The position numbers and the translations under genes were made by a program. Under the pieces are notes generated by a model, which had not been told where the DNA came from, did no database searches, and worked only from the letters and a program-made list of their open reading frames with translations. From Aequorivita sp. (GTDB taxonomy: Bacteria; Bacteroidota; Bacteroidia; Flavobacteriales; Flavobacteriaceae): a stretch of DNA of 58,599 bases. The stretch spans positions 1 through 58,599 of the forward strand of contig PAZL01000026.1 in NCBI GenBank assembly GCA_002715485.1, written 5' to 3'. Of this stretch, positions 38,690 through 56,099 are shown piece after piece (position 1 is the first letter of the stretch; every line of letters starts with the position of its first letter).

Positions 38690-40408
38690 ATGAAAATATT
38701 AGTCGGAATATCAAGAATAATAGTAGGCGTACTTTTTATAATAAGCGGATTGATAAAACTGAACGACCCCGTTGGTTTTTCATTTAAATTGAAAGACTAC
38801 TTCGCGCCGGAAGTTTTAGACCTTGGATTCTTGGTTCCGTATGCTTTACTGATTGCAATTTTTGTCGTGATTTTTGAAGTTCTCCTGGGCGTTGCGCTGC
38901 TTTTGGGTTACCTGAAAAGGTTTACGCTTTGGTCGCTATTGCTTATGATTGTATTTTTCACGTTTCTTACATTTTACTCTGCATATTTCAACAAAGTAAC
39001 CGATTGCGGTTGTTTTGGGGATGCAATAAAGCTTACACCTTGGGAATCTTTCACAAAAGATATCGTACTACTGGTTTTGATTTTGATTCTATTTGTGGGA
39101 AAAAATTATATACAGCCATTTTTTACTAAAGGCACGCGCAGCATACTCATATTTGCATCTTTCGTTTTCTGTCTCGGAATCACGTATTATGTTTTGCTGC
39201 ACTTGCCAATTATAGATTTTCGTCCGTATAAAATTGGTGCAAATATTAAGGAGGGAATGACCGTTCCCGAAGATGCACCTGGCCCTATTTATGAATACCA
39301 GTGGAAATTCAATGTCAATGGCGAAGAAAAAACAATAACCACTAACGGCGAATATCCGCAAGTTGATGGCGAATTGATAAGTACCGAAACCGAAATGATA
39401 CAGGAAGGCTATACGCCACCAATCCACGATTTCACGATGGAACGTGATGGTGAGGATTATACTCAGCAATTTTTAAACGAAGAAAATTTGGTAGTGGTGA
39501 TAGCCTATAGTTTAGGAAATACAGAAAAGGACGGCTATATTCCCATAAAGGAAGTAACCGATAAAGCCATAAAAAATGGTTACAACGTGATAGGATTATC
39601 AGCTTCCTCACAAGAAATGACCGAGGCTTTAACCGAAAAATACAAATTGAATTTCAACTTTTATTTCTGTGATGAAACTACGCTGAAAACCATTGTGCGT
39701 AGCAATCCAGGTATTTTGGAACTGGACAATGGAACAATCAAACAAAAGCTTCACTGGAACGACGCTACAAAATTAGAGCTTCCTGTTGTTGAAAATGCAA
39801 AACCAAAACTTGATTTATCCTTAAAGCAACGTTTGGATAGCATAGCTGTGCTAGACCAAAAATATCGTGCGCTAATGCAGACAAAATCTTTGGAAGAAAG
39901 AAAAAAATTGGGTGAAAGTATGGGGCTTTCCGAAGCAGAATATAGTGGCGATTTGGTAAAAATGCAAAGTGTTTCGGACAGTGTAAATATGATTTTTATT
40001 GAAAAATATTTTATTCAAAAAGGTTATCCGGGCAAATCTGTAGTTGGCGAAGAATCAAGCTTGGTTGCGTGGAATGTTTTACAACACAATCCAGATAAGA
40101 TACCACTTTATTTACCGTTGGTAAAAAAAGCTGCTGATAACGGGGAAATTCCAAAAACTTCAGCAGCAATGATGGAAGACCGTTATTTGATGACGGATGG
40201 CAAACCACAAATTTATGGTACCCAAGGAATGACGTTTGACGATGCCCGTGGCTCTTTTATTTGGCCCATTGAAAACCCCGAAAAGGTAAATGAAAGAAGA
40301 AAAGAAGCTGGTTTTGACGAAACCATTGAAGAATATGCCAAAATCCTTTTTGGTGATGACTTTGTATATGAGTCTCGTACTATCGAACAAGTAAGCCAAC
40401 AACAATAG
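38690..40408 (+). CDS. DoxX-like membrane protein fused to a thioredoxin-fold-like domain (BT_3928 family)
   Basis: N-terminal DoxX-type four-helix membrane region (about 1-150: SGLIKLNDPVGFSFKLKDYF, TDCGCFGDAIKLTPWESF). It is followed by a soluble region of about 400 residues that includes a thioredoxin-like stretch (NEENLVVVIAYSLGNTEKDG, GYNVIGLSASSQEMTEAL) without the CxxC pair. This matches the Bacteroidota BT_3928 family of unknown function. The DCGC near the fourth helix is conserved in relatives. It is followed without spacing by the permease gene and probably acts in the membrane in redox or transport processes (inference). Confidence 0.85.
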   Translation: MKILVGISRIIVGVLFIISGLIKLNDPVGFSFKLKDYFAPEVLDLGFLVPYALLIAIFVVIFEVLLGVALLLGYLKRFTLWSLLLMIVFFTFLTFYSAYFNKVTDCGCFGDAIKLTPWESFTKDIVLLVLILILFVGKNYIQPFFTKGTRSILIFASFVFCLGITYYVLLHLPIIDFRPYKIGANIKEGMTVPEDAPGPIYEYQWKFNVNGEEKTITTNGEYPQVDGELISTETEMIQEGYTPPIHDFTMERDGEDYTQQFLNEENLVVVIAYSLGNTEKDGYIPIKEVTDKAIKNGYNVIGLSASSQEMTEALTEKYKLNFNFYFCDETTLKTIVRSNPGILELDNGTIKQKLHWNDATKLELPVVENAKPKLDLSLKQRLDSIAVLDQKYRALMQTKSLEERKKLGESMGLSEAEYSGDLVKMQSVSDSVNMIFIEKYFIQKGYPGKSVVGEESSLVAWNVLQHNPDKIPLYLPLVKKAADNGEIPKTSAAMMEDRYLMTDGKPQIYGTQGMTFDDARGSFIWPIENPEKVNERRKEAGFDETIEEYAKILFGDDFVYESRTIEQVSQQQ

Positions 40409-49827: not shown

Positions 49828-51171
49828 ATGAAAAAAGTAGTTTTATGCGCATTGGCGCTAATGGGGGGGACAGCGATGTTCGCTCAGTTCAATACAAGTA
49901 CAGTTACACAAACTGGACTTTTGAACGTTAATGGAACACTACAGGGGGGACTAATGAATAATTCCGATGTAGACCAAACTGGTAATTTAAACCTTAATGG
50001 TACCCTGCAATTAGGCGACTATAATGATTCTGACACAGATCAAACAGGGAATCTTAACCTTGCCGGTACTGCCCAATTGGGTAACCGCAACGAGGCAACC
50101 ACATTACAGGTAGGCAACCTTAATGCTTCGGGTACATTGCAGGTGGGTAACCGCAACGATGCCACTACATGGCAGGTTGGTAATCTTAACCTAAGTACTA
50201 CTTCGCAAATAGGAAACAGAAATGGGTCTTTTGTATGGCAAGAAGGCAACCGTAATGAGTCTGACGTAGATCAAACAGGAAATCGTAATGATTCTTATGT
50301 GGACCAGTGGGGTAACCGAAACAGTAGTGATGTTGATCAAGACGGAAACCGTAATGCTTCTGAAGTAGAACAATGGGGTAACAGAAATACTTCTATTGTT
50401 GATCAAGACGGAAATCGCAACGATGCTGATTTGTTCCAATTGGGCAACCGTAACTTTTCTGAAGTTTATCAGGATGGTAACAACAACCTTGCAACAACAG
50501 ATCAAATAGGTAACCGTAACTACTCTGGAGTTGGCCAATTTGGTAACCGTAACGAAAGTGATGTTGACCAAACTGGTAACAGAAACGGATCTTCTGTTAT
50601 TCAAGATGGAAACCGCAACGAAGCTGATACAGACCAAATGGGTAATAGAAACAGTTCTTCTATTTTACAAGTAGGTAATCGTAATGATGCTAGAACTAAT
50701 CAAGTAGGAAATGACAATGTTTCTATAGTAGAGCAAATAGGTAACCGTAACGAAAGTGATGTTGATCAATATGGAAACGACAACTGGGCTGGAACAGGTC
50801 AGTACGGTAACCGTAATGAGAGCACTACCTTCCAATTGGGAGATGATAACTATGCTTTGACAATCCAAGATGGTAATGATAACGTTAGTTACACTGGTCA
50901 AATAGGTTTCTTGAATGATTCTGAAGTATACCAAGTAGGTAACAGCAACTTTAACGCTGTGGGACAAATTGGTTTAGGCAATTATTCTCTAGTTGAGCAA
51001 TACGGAAATAGCAACATCAGCCTTGTTGGTCAAGCTGGAATAGGACATTACAGTCATAACTTGCAAGTTGGTAATGGTAACTTTAGCTTAGTAGGCCAAT
51101 TAGGTGTTGGTAACTGGAGTGATGTTCATCAATTTGGTAACGGTAACGTAGATGTAACTTTGCAAAACTAA
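49828..51171 (+). CDS. csgA: CsgA-like major curlin subunit with 38 regular 11-residue units
   Basis: Secreted functional-amyloid subunit that forms cell-surface fibres. The signal peptide (1-19) ends TAMFA, giving Gln20 as the likely first mature residue. After a short spacer to residue 27 there are 38 consecutive units of exactly 11 residues, with no insertion or deletion (28-445), and a final QN. The consensus is Q-x-G-x-x-N-x-x-x-x-x. Gln at unit position 1 is 38/38, Gly at 3 is 38/38, Asn at 6 is 37/38 (His in unit 35). Half of the units carry GNRN. Each unit should give one strand of a beta-solenoid; E. coli CsgA has only five 22-residue repeats. Units 1-9 are Leu/Thr-rich, 10-28 charged, 29-38 Gly/aromatic. 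Confidence 0.93.
   Translation: MKKVVLCALALMGGTAMFAQFNTSTVTQTGLLNVNGTLQGGLMNNSDVDQTGNLNLNGTLQLGDYNDSDTDQTGNLNLAGTAQLGNRNEATTLQVGNLNASGTLQVGNRNDATTWQVGNLNLSTTSQIGNRNGSFVWQEGNRNESDVDQTGNRNDSYVDQWGNRNSSDVDQDGNRNASEVEQWGNRNTSIVDQDGNRNDADLFQLGNRNFSEVYQDGNNNLATTDQIGNRNYSGVGQFGNRNESDVDQTGNRNGSSVIQDGNRNEADTDQMGNRNSSSILQVGNRNDARTNQVGNDNVSIVEQIGNRNESDVDQYGNDNWAGTGQYGNRNESTTFQLGDDNYALTIQDGNDNVSYTGQIGFLNDSEVYQVGNSNFNAVGQIGLGNYSLVEQYGNSNISLVGQAGIGHYSHNLQVGNGNFSLVGQLGVGNWSDVHQFGNGNVDVTLQN
49909..51162 (+). repeat. 33-bp coding repeat array (38 units) of the csgA-like gene
   Basis: DNA encoding the 38 eleven-residue units; each unit is 33 bp and unit k begins at 49909 + 33(k-1). Nucleotide identity between units is partial, because synonymous codons vary, so the protein pattern is conserved better than the DNA. 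Confidence 0.9.
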
Positions 51172-51226
51172 AAATTATTCAAGAATATATTTAGATATTC
51201 AATTTTTAGAAAATAGTAAATTAAGT

Positions 51227-51259
51227 AGTATAAGAGCATCTAACCCATGCTCTTATACT
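51227..51259 (+). terminator. Hairpin between the csgA-like and csgB-like genes
   Basis: Perfect 13-bp stem AGTATAAGAGCAT / ATGCTCTTATACT, loop CTAACCC, followed by TCTTTATAAAG. It lies 55 bp after the csgA-like stop, so it is a partial terminator or 3' mRNA stabiliser that would raise subunit mRNA over the downstream assembly genes (inference). Confidence 0.75.
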
Positions 51260-51380
51260 TCTTTATAAAGAAAGGTCATTTCCTGCCATTAGTAAGGGAG
51301 TTAGAAAATTAATAGCGTTTTTATTATTATTTTCCTAAAAAAAGCAATAACTTAACTAACCTTAAAAAGAAAGAAAAGAG

Positions 51381-51893
51381 ATGAAAACTTTAAAAGCCAT
51401 AATAATAGTACTCGTTTTTATAGCGTTAGTGAATGTATCTCATGCGCAAACATATTTGGGAGATAATACAACTTCATTGGAAAATCTTCAAAAGACAACT
51501 TCACTATTCAATATTGTCGCTTCACAAAATGTACCTCCAGCTGATGTAAACAATAGTATCCGTGTTCAGCAAATAGGAAATAACAATACTTCTTTTTCTA
51601 GTACAACATCAAATTATAGCGATATTTCCTTATCTCAACTTGGAAATAGCAACGATATATATCTTAATGTTTCTGCAAATAGAATATCAGAAGATGTTAT
51701 CCAGGTTGGTAATAACCATAATTTTATAGATATGGACAATGCCGGCAGACAAAACCATTCCGCAAATATTTTGCAATTTGGAACAAATCAGAATTTGATT
51801 TTACTAGGAGGTCAAAATTCAATTTCGAATAATATGATAGTATCCATGCAAGGCAAAAATCAGACGATTATTGTTCGCAACTTAAATAATTAA
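51381..51893 (+). CDS. csgB: Minor curlin / CsgB-like protein (170 aa)
   Basis: Signal peptide (about 1-22, ending SHAQ) and a less regular set of curlin repeats with the Q-x-G-x-x-N pattern: VQQIGNNNTS, LSQLGNSND, VIQVGNNHN, ILQFGTNQN. There is an N-terminal non-repeat region of about 50 residues. By position and irregular repeats it is the best candidate for the CsgB-like nucleator that templates the major subunit (inference; it could instead be a capping subunit). Followed after 4 bp by the CsgE-like gene. Confidence 0.82.
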   Translation: MKTLKAIIIVLVFIALVNVSHAQTYLGDNTTSLENLQKTTSLFNIVASQNVPPADVNNSIRVQQIGNNNTSFSSTTSNYSDISLSQLGNSNDIYLNVSANRISEDVIQVGNNHNFIDMDNAGRQNHSANILQFGTNQNLILLGGQNSISNNMIVSMQGKNQTIIVRNLNN

Positions 51894-51897
51894 GATT

Positions 51898-52692
51898 TTG
51901 TTTAAAATTTTTCAACATAGCATAGCATTATTCATATGCTTAGTGTTAACTTCCAATATAGTCTTTTCCCAGATATATAATACTGAGGTTGAAGCTAAAA
52001 TTAACATGGAAAAAAATGGTGATATGTACAAGATTACTGGCTCTGCAGTAAATAAAACAGCATCAAATCAAAGTTTGCGATACGTACTTTCTGTCATAAA
52101 AAATGATCCAAATAATTCTAACACTTCAAAAAATGATCAAAGCGGGAGATTTATTTTAGAAATTGGACAAAAAAAGAATCTTTCCTCCACCACAATTAAC
52201 GTAGACGATAAGGATAGGGTTATTATTCTTCTATTACTTTATGATGAAGTGGATAAGCCCCTTGGGATGGATCGAGTTGTGATTAATGGGACAGAAGAAG
52301 ATATTGAAAAGGAAAGGCTTAAAATTGTGGAAAGTGAACAAGCGGTAAATGTTTCTCCAGATGCAATAAACAAGGCCGAAGATGGTGTAATTTTAAGGGG
52401 GATTGTAACAGAAGAAACCAAAACTAAGCCTGGCAGGGATTTTTATAGAATGTTCTACTCATTATACACTACAAATAACATAAATGGCGAGGAAATAGTA
52501 AACATCAAAGAAACGTTGTCATTGAACAACAATACTAAGATTGAAATCTCTGTAGCTAATGAAACAGTATTGGAATTTTTTGTACGGCCTCAAGAAGAAT
52601 ATTTAAAGACAATGTCTGAGGTCGCTATTAAAAGAGTATATTGGTATTTACAAAAGTATAAGGAGAACAAAAACATTCAAAAGCATTATTGA
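51898..52692 (+). CDS. csgE: CsgH-like region fused to CsgE chaperone domain (264 aa)
   Basis: Curli secretion chaperone that guides unfolded subunits to the CsgG pore. Signal peptide (about 1-24, ending VFSQ). Residues 160-256 form the CsgE domain: GVILRGIVTEETKTKPGRDF aligns with the E. coli GLLTNHTVSSIGHDF block, and FFVRPQEEYLKTMSEVAI with its C-terminal region. Residues 26-131 are a beta-rich domain with SVIKNDPNNS, QSGRFILEIGQKKNLSSTTI, resembling CsgH, an alphaproteobacterial curli protein (moderate confidence). Fusion of the two is unusual. Translation starts at TTG, 4 bp after the CsgB-like stop; no ATG precedes the signal peptide. Confidence 0.85.
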   Translation: MFKIFQHSIALFICLVLTSNIVFSQIYNTEVEAKINMEKNGDMYKITGSAVNKTASNQSLRYVLSVIKNDPNNSNTSKNDQSGRFILEIGQKKNLSSTTINVDDKDRVIILLLLYDEVDKPLGMDRVVINGTEEDIEKERLKIVESEQAVNVSPDAINKAEDGVILRGIVTEETKTKPGRDFYRMFYSLYTTNNINGEEIVNIKETLSLNNNTKIEISVANETVLEFFVRPQEEYLKTMSEVAIKRVYWYLQKYKENKNIQKHY

Positions 52693-52803
52693 GTAAAATC
52701 AAATTTTAAAATGTACTCTTTAGTGGGTTTGAATTTTAGTGGATGTTCCTAAAATGTCTGTTTTTCTCTCTTTATTGATAATTTAGTTTTAAAAACAAAA
52801 AAC

Positions 52804-53178
52804 ATGAAAGCTTTTTTACTATTCTTATTTATAACCGTTTCTTCATACTGTGTGGGGCAACAATTAGTTTACAAGCCAATAAACCCAGCATTTGTAGGTG
52901 GAGAACCCTTTAATTATTCTTGGTTGCTAAATTCGGCTAATTCCCAAAATTCGTTTGAAGATTCAAAATTTGATGCATTTGATAAACTTGACGGTTTTAA
53001 CAATGGTCTTGATAATAAATTTGGCAATAGTGGTTTTGGTAATGATAATTTGCCCCCTAATGGAACCTCAATTAGCGGAGATTTTCAATATGAGGTTTTT
53101 GAGTCATCCAACGGATTGGTAATAAATGTTTTAAATATTGTAACTGGCGAGGCTACACAGATAATCATCCCAAATTAA
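52804..53178 (+). CDS. csgF: Curli assembly protein CsgF (124 aa)
   Basis: Accessory protein that docks in the CsgG channel on the outer face and presents nucleator. Signal peptide ends VGQ, and mature QQLVYKPINPAFVGGEPFN matches the conserved N-terminal CsgF segment that plugs CsgG (E. coli: RNPNFGGNPNNGAFLLNSA). WLLNSANSQNSFED continues that match. A flexible Asn/Gly/Asp-rich linker (55-80) is followed by a beta-rich end SGDFQYEVFESSNGLVINVL. Size close to E. coli CsgF (138 aa). It precedes csgG by 7 bp. Confidence 0.92.
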   Translation: MKAFLLFLFITVSSYCVGQQLVYKPINPAFVGGEPFNYSWLLNSANSQNSFEDSKFDAFDKLDGFNNGLDNKFGNSGFGNDNLPPNGTSISGDFQYEVFESSNGLVINVLNIVTGEATQIIIPN

Positions 53179-53185
53179 AATCAAC

Positions 53186-54595
53186 ATGAAGAATACGCTT
53201 ACAAAGTTATGTATTGCAACTATCTCTTTTTTTTTGTGGGGTTGTGGAGCATATTTTAATCAACCTGTAGGGCCGCAAGATGCACGGATAGGTGAAATTA
53301 CCCAACAAACTAAAACACTCTATTCACTTCCGGAACCTGCAGAGCCTATTATTGCTGGTGTTTATAACTTTAAAGATCAAACTGGCCAATACAAAAATAT
53401 AGAAACAGGAAGTACCTTTAGTACAGCCGTTACACAAGGTGCTACTACAATTTTAATTAAAGCACTTGAGGATTCAAAGTGGTTCAGACCCATTGAACGT
53501 GAAAATATTAGCAACCTTTTGAATGAGCGAAACATCATCAGAAGCACTCGCGAAGAGTATAGAAAGGCTGATGACCAAACCCCTACACGTTTGACCCCAT
53601 TATTATTTGCTGGAGTACTACTAGAAGGGGGCATTGTGTCCTATGACTCCAATATACTTACTGGAGGTGCAGGAGCTAGATATTTTGGAACAGGAGCTTC
53701 TACTCAATACAGGCAAGACCGTATAACGGTTTATTTAAGAGCTGTGTCCACTAATACCGGTGAGGTATTAAAAACCGTGTATGTTTCAAAAACTATACTT
53801 TCTCAAGCCGTTGACGTTAGCTTGTTCAAATATGTTAATTTTCAACGTTTACTTGAGGTAGAAACTGGGTTTACCAAAAACGAACCTGCACAAATGGCAG
53901 TTCAGGAAGCAATTGAAAAATCTGTTGAAATGCTGATTGTGGAAGGAATAAAAGACAGGCTTTGGTCCACTCGGGATGGTGAAGAAAAGAATAAGGAAAT
54001 TGTAGATGCCTACTTAAATGAAAAGGAAGAGGAGGAATCTACAGGTCTTTATGAAAGAAGATTTTTGAATTATGATTTCAGGAATACGCTTTATGCAAAT
54101 TTTGGAACCGCCCTTGTTGATGGTGATTATGAAACGGGAGTGCTAGATTATAAGGCTGGGCTGGGATATAAATATAATATCATTCCCGAATTGAGCATTA
54201 ACGGCGATTTTCAGATATTTAAATTAAATAGTACACCCGAAATCAATCATTGGTGGGCCAGCGAAAGTTTGATTGTTGAATACAACATGCTCCCTTACGA
54301 TAGAGTATCCCCTTTGTTTTTTGTAGGTCCCGGAGTCCTACATTTTGTAGATGATAGCGGGTTCTTGTACCTACAGAAATGGGACACATTTTTTAATATG
54401 AAATTTGGCGCAGGCCTTCAATACCGTGTTTCAAAAAGAATTTCATTTGAACTCAGCGGGGAATGGAATGTTACTTTTACAGATAAAATTGACAATACGC
54501 CAAGGGGTAGAAGAGATGATTATTACTATACCTTTGGTCTTGGTCTTAACTATCATTTTAATTCAACAAAATCGAACATAAGGACTAATGAATAA
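53186..54595 (+). CDS. csgG: CsgG curli secretion channel with a C-terminal beta-barrel domain (469 aa)
   Basis: Outer-membrane lipoprotein pore for amyloid subunits. Lipobox WGC at Cys20. Residues 20-262 align almost without gaps to E. coli CsgG (for example NLLNERNIIR, GGAGARYFGTGA, TGEVLKTVYVSKTIL, YVNFQRLLEVETGFT-NEP), so the pore domain is complete. The E. coli eyelet Phe56 is kept (Phe78), but the Asn55 position is Thr77 and the Tyr51 region reads NIE (71-73) with one extra residue. Residues about 300-458 are an additional domain with alternating hydrophobic strands ending in aromatic residues and LGLNYHF, like an 8-strand OmpA-type barrel. The E. coli protein is 277 aa. The next gene overlaps by 8 bp. 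Confidence 0.93.
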   Translation: MKNTLTKLCIATISFFLWGCGAYFNQPVGPQDARIGEITQQTKTLYSLPEPAEPIIAGVYNFKDQTGQYKNIETGSTFSTAVTQGATTILIKALEDSKWFRPIERENISNLLNERNIIRSTREEYRKADDQTPTRLTPLLFAGVLLEGGIVSYDSNILTGGAGARYFGTGASTQYRQDRITVYLRAVSTNTGEVLKTVYVSKTILSQAVDVSLFKYVNFQRLLEVETGFTKNEPAQMAVQEAIEKSVEMLIVEGIKDRLWSTRDGEEKNKEIVDAYLNEKEEEESTGLYERRFLNYDFRNTLYANFGTALVDGDYETGVLDYKAGLGYKYNIIPELSINGDFQIFKLNSTPEINHWWASESLIVEYNMLPYDRVSPLFFVGPGVLHFVDDSGFLYLQKWDTFFNMKFGAGLQYRVSKRISFELSGEWNVTFTDKIDNTPRGRRDDYYYTFGLGLNYHFNSTKSNIRTNE

Positions 54596-56099
54596 ATCCA
54601 TGATGATGAAACGCTTTTCTAAATATATAACCCTTGTTTTTTTCTTGACCGTCCTGTTTTCTTGTAACGAGGATAGAATAAATGAAAATGATTTTGGAAC
54701 CATAACGGGAATCGTTGTGGTAGAAGGTACTAATGAGCCCCTTGAAAACGTCAGGATTTCTACTAGTCCTGTTACAAGCACTGTTTTTACAGATGTAGCG
54801 GGAAAATTCAAGATAGAAAACGTGCCGGCGGGAGAATATTCAGTTGCTGCTAGGCTTGATGGATTTCTTGCTAGGTATGAGCCGGCCACTGTCATATATA
54901 ATACCTCTGTAAATGTTATTTTTGAAATGGAGATATCTACAGCGAATAATAGGCCGCCCAGCACTCCTGCTTTGATTAAGCCTGCTGAAAATGAAGTATT
55001 GGAGAGTACCGAAGCTTTATTTGAATGGAGCTCTACTGATCCAGAAGGAGATCCGATTACTTTCTCACTTGAGCTAAGAAATGATCAGGACGAAGAGGTG
55101 CTATTATTTGAAGATATTACTGACTCTACCTACGTATATTCTGATTTGATGCTTGGAGCACAGTATTTTTGGCAGATAACTGCTACTGATGATATCAATC
55201 CTCCGGTCTTGAGCCCAGTAGGAACTTTTAAGGTTAAACCTGCTCCTGTAGAAAATAGATTTTTGTTTGTTCGTAATATAAACGGAAATAATGTTATTTT
55301 TTCTGCGGATGAAGATGGTAATGAATTTCAATTGACTTCTGAAAATACAAATAGTTTCAGACCAAGAAGAAATGTTGCTGCTAATAGAATTGCCTACCTA
55401 CAAACAACCGGGGCGCAGGCAGACATTTATACGATGAAGCGAGATGGTACCGATAAGGTTAAAGTAACTTCCAATGTAAGGCCCAATGGTTTTGACTTAA
55501 ATGAAATAAACATTGACTGGCCAGAAAATAGCGATCGTATTTACTTTCCAAATATGGATAAATTGTATCAAATTAGATCAAACGGTCAAAACCTTAATCT
55601 GGTTTACCAAACACCAGATGGTTCTTTAATTTCTGAAATGGCCGTTAGCGAAAATGCTAATTTGATAGTACTCAAGACAAATGACTTGAATGGGTATAAT
55701 GTTTCTTTTATTACCATTACCAAAAACGGAAATCTTATTGATACTTTACTATCAGGTCTTCCGGGTGGTGCTAGCGGTCTTGATTTATCTGTTGATAATA
55801 ATAGTATTGTTTATTCCTATGATATTTCTGAATTTCAAAGTAATGACTATAGAAGGCTGAACTCTCGAATCTTTACCTATAATATATCAACTGGTGGTGA
55901 ACCTGATGATATTTCAAATGAAAAACCAAACGGCACCAATGATTTGGACCCAATATTTGCCCCTAATGAAGCGCTTGTAATTTACACCAATACTTCTAAC
56001 GACGGTATTTCTCAAAAGAACGTTTATAGCCTTGAAATAGGTGTGGATGAAACGCGAAGCCTACTTTACACTGATGCTTTTATGCCCGATTGGGAATAA
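54588..56099 (+). CDS. Multidomain surface lipoprotein of the curli operon
   Basis: Lipoprotein signal ending in VLFSC (Cys26 from the first ATG at 54588; three more ATGs at 54600-54606 are alternatives, so the true start is uncertain). Domain order: carboxypeptidase-regulatory-like beta-sandwich (about 37-116, TGIVVVEGTNEPLENVRIST, TDVAGKFKIENVPAGEYSV), Fn3-like domain (about 120-217, PPSTPALIKPAENE, GAQYFWQITATDDINPP), and a TolB/WD40-like propeller (about 225-503, with PD40-type strands such as DIYTMKRDGTDKVKVTS). No catalytic motif. The 8-bp overlap with csgG suggests a curli-related role: anchoring, presenting or binding fibres at the surface (inference). Confidence 0.85.
   Translation: MNKSMMMKRFSKYITLVFFLTVLFSCNEDRINENDFGTITGIVVVEGTNEPLENVRISTSPVTSTVFTDVAGKFKIENVPAGEYSVAARLDGFLARYEPATVIYNTSVNVIFEMEISTANNRPPSTPALIKPAENEVLESTEALFEWSSTDPEGDPITFSLELRNDQDEEVLLFEDITDSTYVYSDLMLGAQYFWQITATDDINPPVLSPVGTFKVKPAPVENRFLFVRNINGNNVIFSADEDGNEFQLTSENTNSFRPRRNVAANRIAYLQTTGAQADIYTMKRDGTDKVKVTSNVRPNGFDLNEINIDWPENSDRIYFPNMDKLYQIRSNGQNLNLVYQTPDGSLISEMAVSENANLIVLKTNDLNGYNVSFITITKNGNLIDTLLSGLPGGASGLDLSVDNNSIVYSYDISEFQSNDYRRLNSRIFTYNISTGGEPDDISNEKPNGTNDLDPIFAPNEALVIYTNTSNDGISQKNVYSLEIGVDETRSLLYTDAFMPDWE

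Follow-up and report, generated by a model that had tools for sequence, protein, structure and literature searches.

A curli-type operon of Aequorivita sp. with a CsgH-like/CsgE fusion, a predicted barrel on CsgG and a terminal lipoprotein

The csg operon and its curlins

The window, meaning the whole 58,599-nucleotide stretch of Aequorivita sp. contig PAZL01000026.1 that was analyzed, contains six head-to-tail genes on the + strand at 49828-56099, and all six reading frames are open. In order, they encode a major curlin, a putative minor curlin, a CsgH-like/CsgE fusion, CsgF, a CsgG channel subunit and a terminal lipoprotein. The operon lies between a type III glutamine synthetase gene and a PurM-like (AIRS) gene, and a single CsgG locus and a single curlin locus were detected in the genome (2.8 Mb, 70 contigs, ~90% complete). 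A six-gene curli-type operon had been proposed in a sequence-only reading of this DNA. The gene coordinates and Pfam families bear it out, with curlin, CsgE, CsgF and CsgG assigned above the Pfam cut-off. That reading had staked itself on profile searches for CsgE, CsgF and CsgG, and all three matched (1.8e-13, 4.4e-21 and 2.2e-64, respectively). It had also placed no CsgD-type activator nearby, and no Pfam match to a LuxR/CsgD-type activator was found among the 11 neighboring ORFs scanned, two of which had no Pfam family. The pattern TAnnTTTG, which we take to be the Bacteroidota promoter motif, had no match upstream of the major curlin gene or in two of the internal gaps. That the curlins or the lipoprotein leave by type IX secretion was rejected, as none of the six products gave a type IX sorting domain at a Pfam E of 1. 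Elsewhere in the window, a single ORF at 38690-40408 carries MauE/DoxX and DUF6624 domains and is part of a row that also contains thioredoxin-like, TIM and PrmA genes.

The major curlin (CsgA-like; 49828..51171, + strand, 447 aa) matched the Pfam family Curlin_rpt in 16 stretches (2.2e-49). Its QxGxxN/H motif occurs 38 times without a break, at a constant distance of 11 residues over all 37 intervals, which would correspond to about 19 strand-turn-strand rungs. The curlin signal peptide was identified by eye in the translation. The minor curlin (CsgB-like, a candidate nucleator; 51381..51893, + strand, 170 aa) contains three QxGxxN/H motifs at a spacing of 22 residues and scored below the Pfam cut-off (E 0.0095; 16.3 bits against 20.7). 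The curlin assignment of the sequence-only reading was thus upheld by profile search for the major curlin, while the minor one fell short of the threshold; curlin-like ORFs occupy the same place in relatives. An additional curlin-like ORF of 1041 aa was observed upstream of the operon in Luteirhabdus pelagi (locus L018, 2838-5963).

Between the two curlin genes, a perfect 13 bp stem with a 7-nt loop is located at 51227..51259 (+ strand). Of 79 loci, counting the window, 44 had a perfect stem of at least 9 bp between their last two curlin genes, compared to no stems in a control with one shuffle per gap, run on gaps of at least 40 bases. The stem at 51227..51259 is a candidate element for processing or stabilizing the RNA or for partial termination, and its place in the curlin-curlin gap may serve to set the CsgA:CsgB ratio.

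Conservation and domain architecture

Two sets of loci were compared. The gene-order set comprised the window and 79 relatives, which were best hits to the barrel-bearing CsgG. The order curlin(s)-csgH and csgE-csgF-csgG-lipoprotein was found in 78 of these 80 loci, and the two exceptions were cut by contig ends (L066 begins inside csgG and L074 ends 60 bases past it). This order is kept across genera at about 48-70% CsgG identity. The phylum sample consisted of 296 genomes searched for CsgF only, of which 37 matched, 32 of them above the cut-off. The 31 above-cut-off matches besides the window were taken, the five sub-cut-off matches being left out, and 28 had a csg locus; L235-L237, which were weak CsgF hits, had none and are outside the 28. 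Among 27 genomes of the same genus as the window, six gave no CsgG match, one gave a fragment and two gave full-length hits with a stop codon; with six lacking a match, the curli system is dispensable. Locus L032 showed two successive sets of csgH-E, csgF, csgG and lipoprotein genes, the second lipoprotein gene being truncated where the locus ends. Plasmids of Spirosoma, Hymenobacter and Salinibacter (L010, L011 and L012) also carried loci of this type. On the Hymenobacter plasmid, csgG is separated from the lipoprotein gene by transposase genes, and the Salinibacter plasmid locus has a standalone gene annotated csgH.

The third gene (51898..52692, + strand, TTG start) encodes 264 aa with a signal peptide, a CsgC/CsgH-like region at residues ~33-112 and a CsgE domain at 166-261, and its CsgH/E profile matched CsgE 2na4 at 3.5e-6. 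The sequence-only reading had described this product as a CsgE-type chaperone; the CsgE part stands, and the protein is more than a plain CsgE because of the N-terminal CsgH-like domain. Residues 33-112 matched NCBIfam CsgH at 5.7e-8 (32.7 bits; cut-off 35) and Pfam CsgC at 0.0016, below the cut-off. Against solved CsgC the value was 0.19, and a viral envelope glycoprotein ranked better (0.11); the viral matches to this profile, at 0.11 and above, were taken as chance. Among 42 aligned fusion rows (window included), Pfam CsgE was found in all 42 and NCBIfam CsgH in 32 at 0.001. Cysteine was absent from the CsgH-like part in 42/42 rows, leaving the CxC and distant-pair patterns by which PMC4838910, in its accessible text, sorts CsgC from CsgH without a match. 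For this reason, the domain is named CsgH-like and is kept out of CsgH proper. In the phylum sample, the fusion was present in all ten loci belonging to the window's family or to a second family of the same order, and it went undetected in the other 18 of 28, where a diverged domain could escape detection. Two of the 28 have a separate csgH, which was recovered with a profile built from the domain of the window protein and its relatives.

The fourth gene encodes CsgF (52804..53178, + strand, 124 aa). The fifth encodes the CsgG lipoprotein channel subunit (53186..54595, + strand, 469 aa), in which the CsgG domain spans residues 48-262 and residues 39-285 align with CsgG of known structure (E 1.4e-63). 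Behind this core, the model predicts an eight-stranded outer-membrane barrel at 300-458. Mean pLDDT over residues 301-460 was 81-94 in 13 of 16 ten-residue blocks and 56-75 in the remaining three; the channel part was poorly modelled as a monomer (mean pLDDT 69.9). In Foldseek, the front of the protein matched CsgG (6.7e-16), and OmpA and NspA (NspA TM 0.80 on the target) were matched by the back. Among the profiles, NCBIfam PorG matched below its cut-off (1.1e-7), and Pfam OMP_b-brl gave 26.8 bits for the window protein (cut-off 28.7) and was found at 0.001 in 35 of 48 aligned CsgG rows. The barrel was on CsgG in 27 of the 28 phylum-sample loci, the remaining locus running off the fetched edge, and since those loci were chosen on CsgF alone, the barrel in that sample is not a selection artefact. 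The match to an Azospirillum plasmid CsgG was confined to the CsgG core (4-271 of 447). In the model, the eight strands place both barrel ends in the periplasm, where the C-terminal region of E. coli CsgG also lies according to the accessible text of PMC12822426. By our assignment of inside and outside, the last outer loop is the most conserved (mean top-residue share 0.64 vs. 0.23-0.51 in the other three) and could be a docking site.

The terminal gene (54588..56099, + strand) encodes a 503 aa lipoprotein with a CNED signal, a CarboxypepD_reg domain (Pfam, 9.2e-12), an fn3-like region and a TolB-like beta-propeller. CarboxypepD_reg was found in 44/44 aligned rows and fn3 in 19/44 at 0.001. 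The propeller was confidently predicted (mean pLDDT 90.4), and TolB was its best bacterial fold match. NED directly follows the lipid cysteine in the window protein. Among rows longer than 450 aa (78 with the window, two shorter rows excluded), the start was CSED in 35 and CSEE in 28, and 76 had an acid at both +3 and +4. This start resembles the surface-lipoprotein export signal of Bacteroidota, given as SDDFE for F. johnsoniae in the accessible text of PMC5080379. Under a uniform lipobox rule, at least two acidic residues at +2 to +6 occurred in 62/66 terminal lipoproteins, 0/64 CsgG proteins and 27/67 flanking lipoprotein-like ORFs; the acidic signal is enriched in the terminal lipoprotein, yet the background also shows it often. 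Of the 28 phylum-sample loci, 23 had a match to the lipoprotein, 15 at 493-554 aa and eight at 83-260 aa; of the short matches, L216 was cut at the edge and L208, L209 and L227 were complete short ORFs. It was missing from L213, L221 and L222 with several kb in view. Taken together, the fusions and the added lipoprotein announced by the sequence-only reading can now be specified: CsgE bears a CsgH-like domain, CsgG a predicted eight-stranded barrel, and the lipoprotein an export-type signal.

An A10 tract between csgH and csgE in Flavobacterium

Unlike the plain in-frame CsgH-like/CsgE fusion of the window's species, 12 loci among the 80, each bearing the name Flavobacterium, carry csgH and csgE as separate ORFs in different frames, and no signal peptide was seen on the separate csgE in these 12. 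The genus of one of them (L075, Flavobacterium sp. Leaf82) was sampled further. Among its 249 genomes, 59 matched the fused protein, 26 of them with two half-covering matches; we added loci from 25 of these 26 (the other being the genome of L075) and from 15 of the 33 with one match. In total, 194 loci were examined. A neighboring csgH/csgE pair was present in 172 of them (22 without), and these yielded 138 distinct junctions, of which 107 keep the frame and 31 do not. Merging identical junctions reduced 38 out-of-frame loci to these 31, and the same species can recur in both collections. The out-of-frame A10 loci include L048, L055, L074, L075, L077-L079, L081, L082, L084, L090, L091 and L137-L161.

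All 31 out-of-frame junctions share an exact A10 run, an identical -1 offset and a G as the base after the run; the other wrong frame was never seen. The CsgH frame meets a stop within three codons past the EKKK/QKKK block in 29 of them. Plain decay of csgE in Flavobacterium was rejected, as the CsgE domain was free of stops in 32/32 distinct sequences from out-of-frame species, with a mean pN of 0.176 against a pS of 0.685. Median dN/dS for CsgE was 0.09 in these species vs. 0.16 in 15 fused Flavobacterium-type sequences without the tract, the medians covering only pairs with dS 0.05-2 (240 for CsgE), since many other pairs were saturated. CsgE in the out-of-frame Flavobacterium is under purifying selection.

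The heptamer A_AAA_AAG is a strong -1 site, and the simplest reading of the A10 junctions is that they suggest programmed frameshifting or slippage. An A10 run by itself does not imply a shift, because seven in-frame junction stretches hold one too. Downstream RNA structure was judged not convincing as a stimulator (mean z -0.97 with single-base shuffles, 12/31 below -1.5). The main alternative is random phase variation of the A tract, which does mutate, as the tree needs seven changes for A10 and three for A11 (long branches flagged as unsure). Three A11 junctions, all in frame, sit at three separate places on the tree. However, every out-of-frame junction is A10, never in the other wrong frame, against these three in-frame A11 cases, and phase variation is less likely than programmed slippage. 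With programmed slippage, some ribosomes or transcripts would end after the CsgH-like part at A10, and others would shift by -1 and yield the CsgH-like/CsgE fusion. One gene would thereby determine how much anti-amyloid chaperone is free relative to the pore-gating chaperone.

Proposed mechanism and relation to known curli systems

Mechanistic work on curli centers on E. coli. The window shares with the E. coli csgBAC/csgDEFG system CsgG, CsgF, CsgE, a CsgA-type and a candidate CsgB-type curlin and a putative CsgC-like domain. It differs in being a single cluster in one direction with no CsgD-type match in the scanned neighbors, in the fusion of the CsgC/H-like domain to CsgE, in the extra barrel on CsgG and in the extra lipoprotein. 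The 38 motif repeats of its curlin compare with five in E. coli CsgA, as given in the portions of the literature available. Curli were already established in Bacteroidota, as the sequence-only reading had said: the accessible parts of PMC3521004 and PMC12822426 report such loci, and the window operon is one of them. According to the same portion of PMC3521004, all Bacteroidetes genera lack csgC. The CsgH chaperones of PMC4838910 belong, as the window domain probably does, to the CsgC-like family, and its available text mentions a Bacteroidetes sub-family; the window domain differs in being free of cysteine and in forming the N-terminal half of a CsgE protein, and neither "fused" nor "fusion" appears anywhere in that paper. 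The predicted fold of CsgG residues 300-458 is like that of OmpA/NspA-type eight-stranded barrels, with a sub-threshold profile match to PorG of the type IX system; the window barrel differs in being fused to a channel subunit, in an operon whose products carry no type IX sorting domain. Neither the CsgE fusion nor the CsgG barrel nor the lipoprotein is mentioned in the accessible texts of PMC3521004 and PMC12822426. No description of these or of the csgE frameshift was found there, in the accessible texts of PMC4838910, PMC5135000, PMC10192328, PMC5080379 and PMC9581022, or in titles and abstract openings, a scope in which subscription journals are largely not included. This is a known kind of system, whose architecture here forms a distinct variant of the Bacteroidota.

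The analysis establishes which genes are present, their domain make-up, their conserved order, the lipoprotein signal and the predicted folds. Our main reading, to which we assign a probability of roughly 0.87, is that the window holds a complete Bacteroidota-type curli (type VIII) secretion and assembly operon. By homology, the curlins would cross the inner membrane via Sec, the fused CsgH-like/CsgE protein would keep them unfolded and deliver them to a CsgG nonamer, and they would exit through CsgG, with CsgF and the CsgB-like curlin starting fibre growth on the cell surface. Each of the nine CsgG subunits would bear its own small barrel, so that nine barrels would ring the pore, and the chaperone-gate fusion would hold the anti-amyloid domain at the pore mouth. 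Judging from its position and signal, the lipoprotein may be flipped to the cell surface, where it may anchor fibres or aid assembly beside CsgF.

An operon that is decaying or silent, with no fibre made, would agree with the missing, fragmentary and stop-containing CsgG hits in same-genus genomes. All six window genes are open, however, and the whole gene order is conserved across genera, which makes this very improbable. We give equally little credence to a CsgG-type channel exporting a structural, non-amyloid repeat protein such as a stable solenoid adhesin: given its unbroken 11-residue motif, a single extended beta-solenoid is a conceivable fold for the 447-aa protein, but the operon also encodes CsgE, CsgF, a CsgH-like domain and another, putative curlin. 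The doubt is larger for the last gene. It could encode an unrelated neighbor or a periplasmic TolB-like protein in place of a surface curli factor, and the TolB match of the propeller, the similar acidic start of many flanking ORFs and the three phylum-sample loci without it point that way. We regard this as unlikely, given its match within most CsgF-selected loci and the acidic signal in nearly all terminal lipoprotein rows.

Beyond the main reading of a curli operon, we consider it fairly probable, from the sequences compared, that in a large part of Flavobacterium recoding at A10 (frame A_AAA_AAG) sets the ratio of free CsgH-like protein to CsgH-like/CsgE fusion and that, there and in the window, each CsgG pore would have CsgH-like domains and satellite barrels, nine of each. 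Should this layout of the Bacteroidota prove correct, chaperone and barrel ring would both be built into the pore, with a surface lipoprotein as a frequent part. This would provide new handles on the gating and anchoring of amyloid export in a widespread phylum, and in Flavobacterium the A10 tract would be a further element, with recoding setting the dosage of the chaperone.
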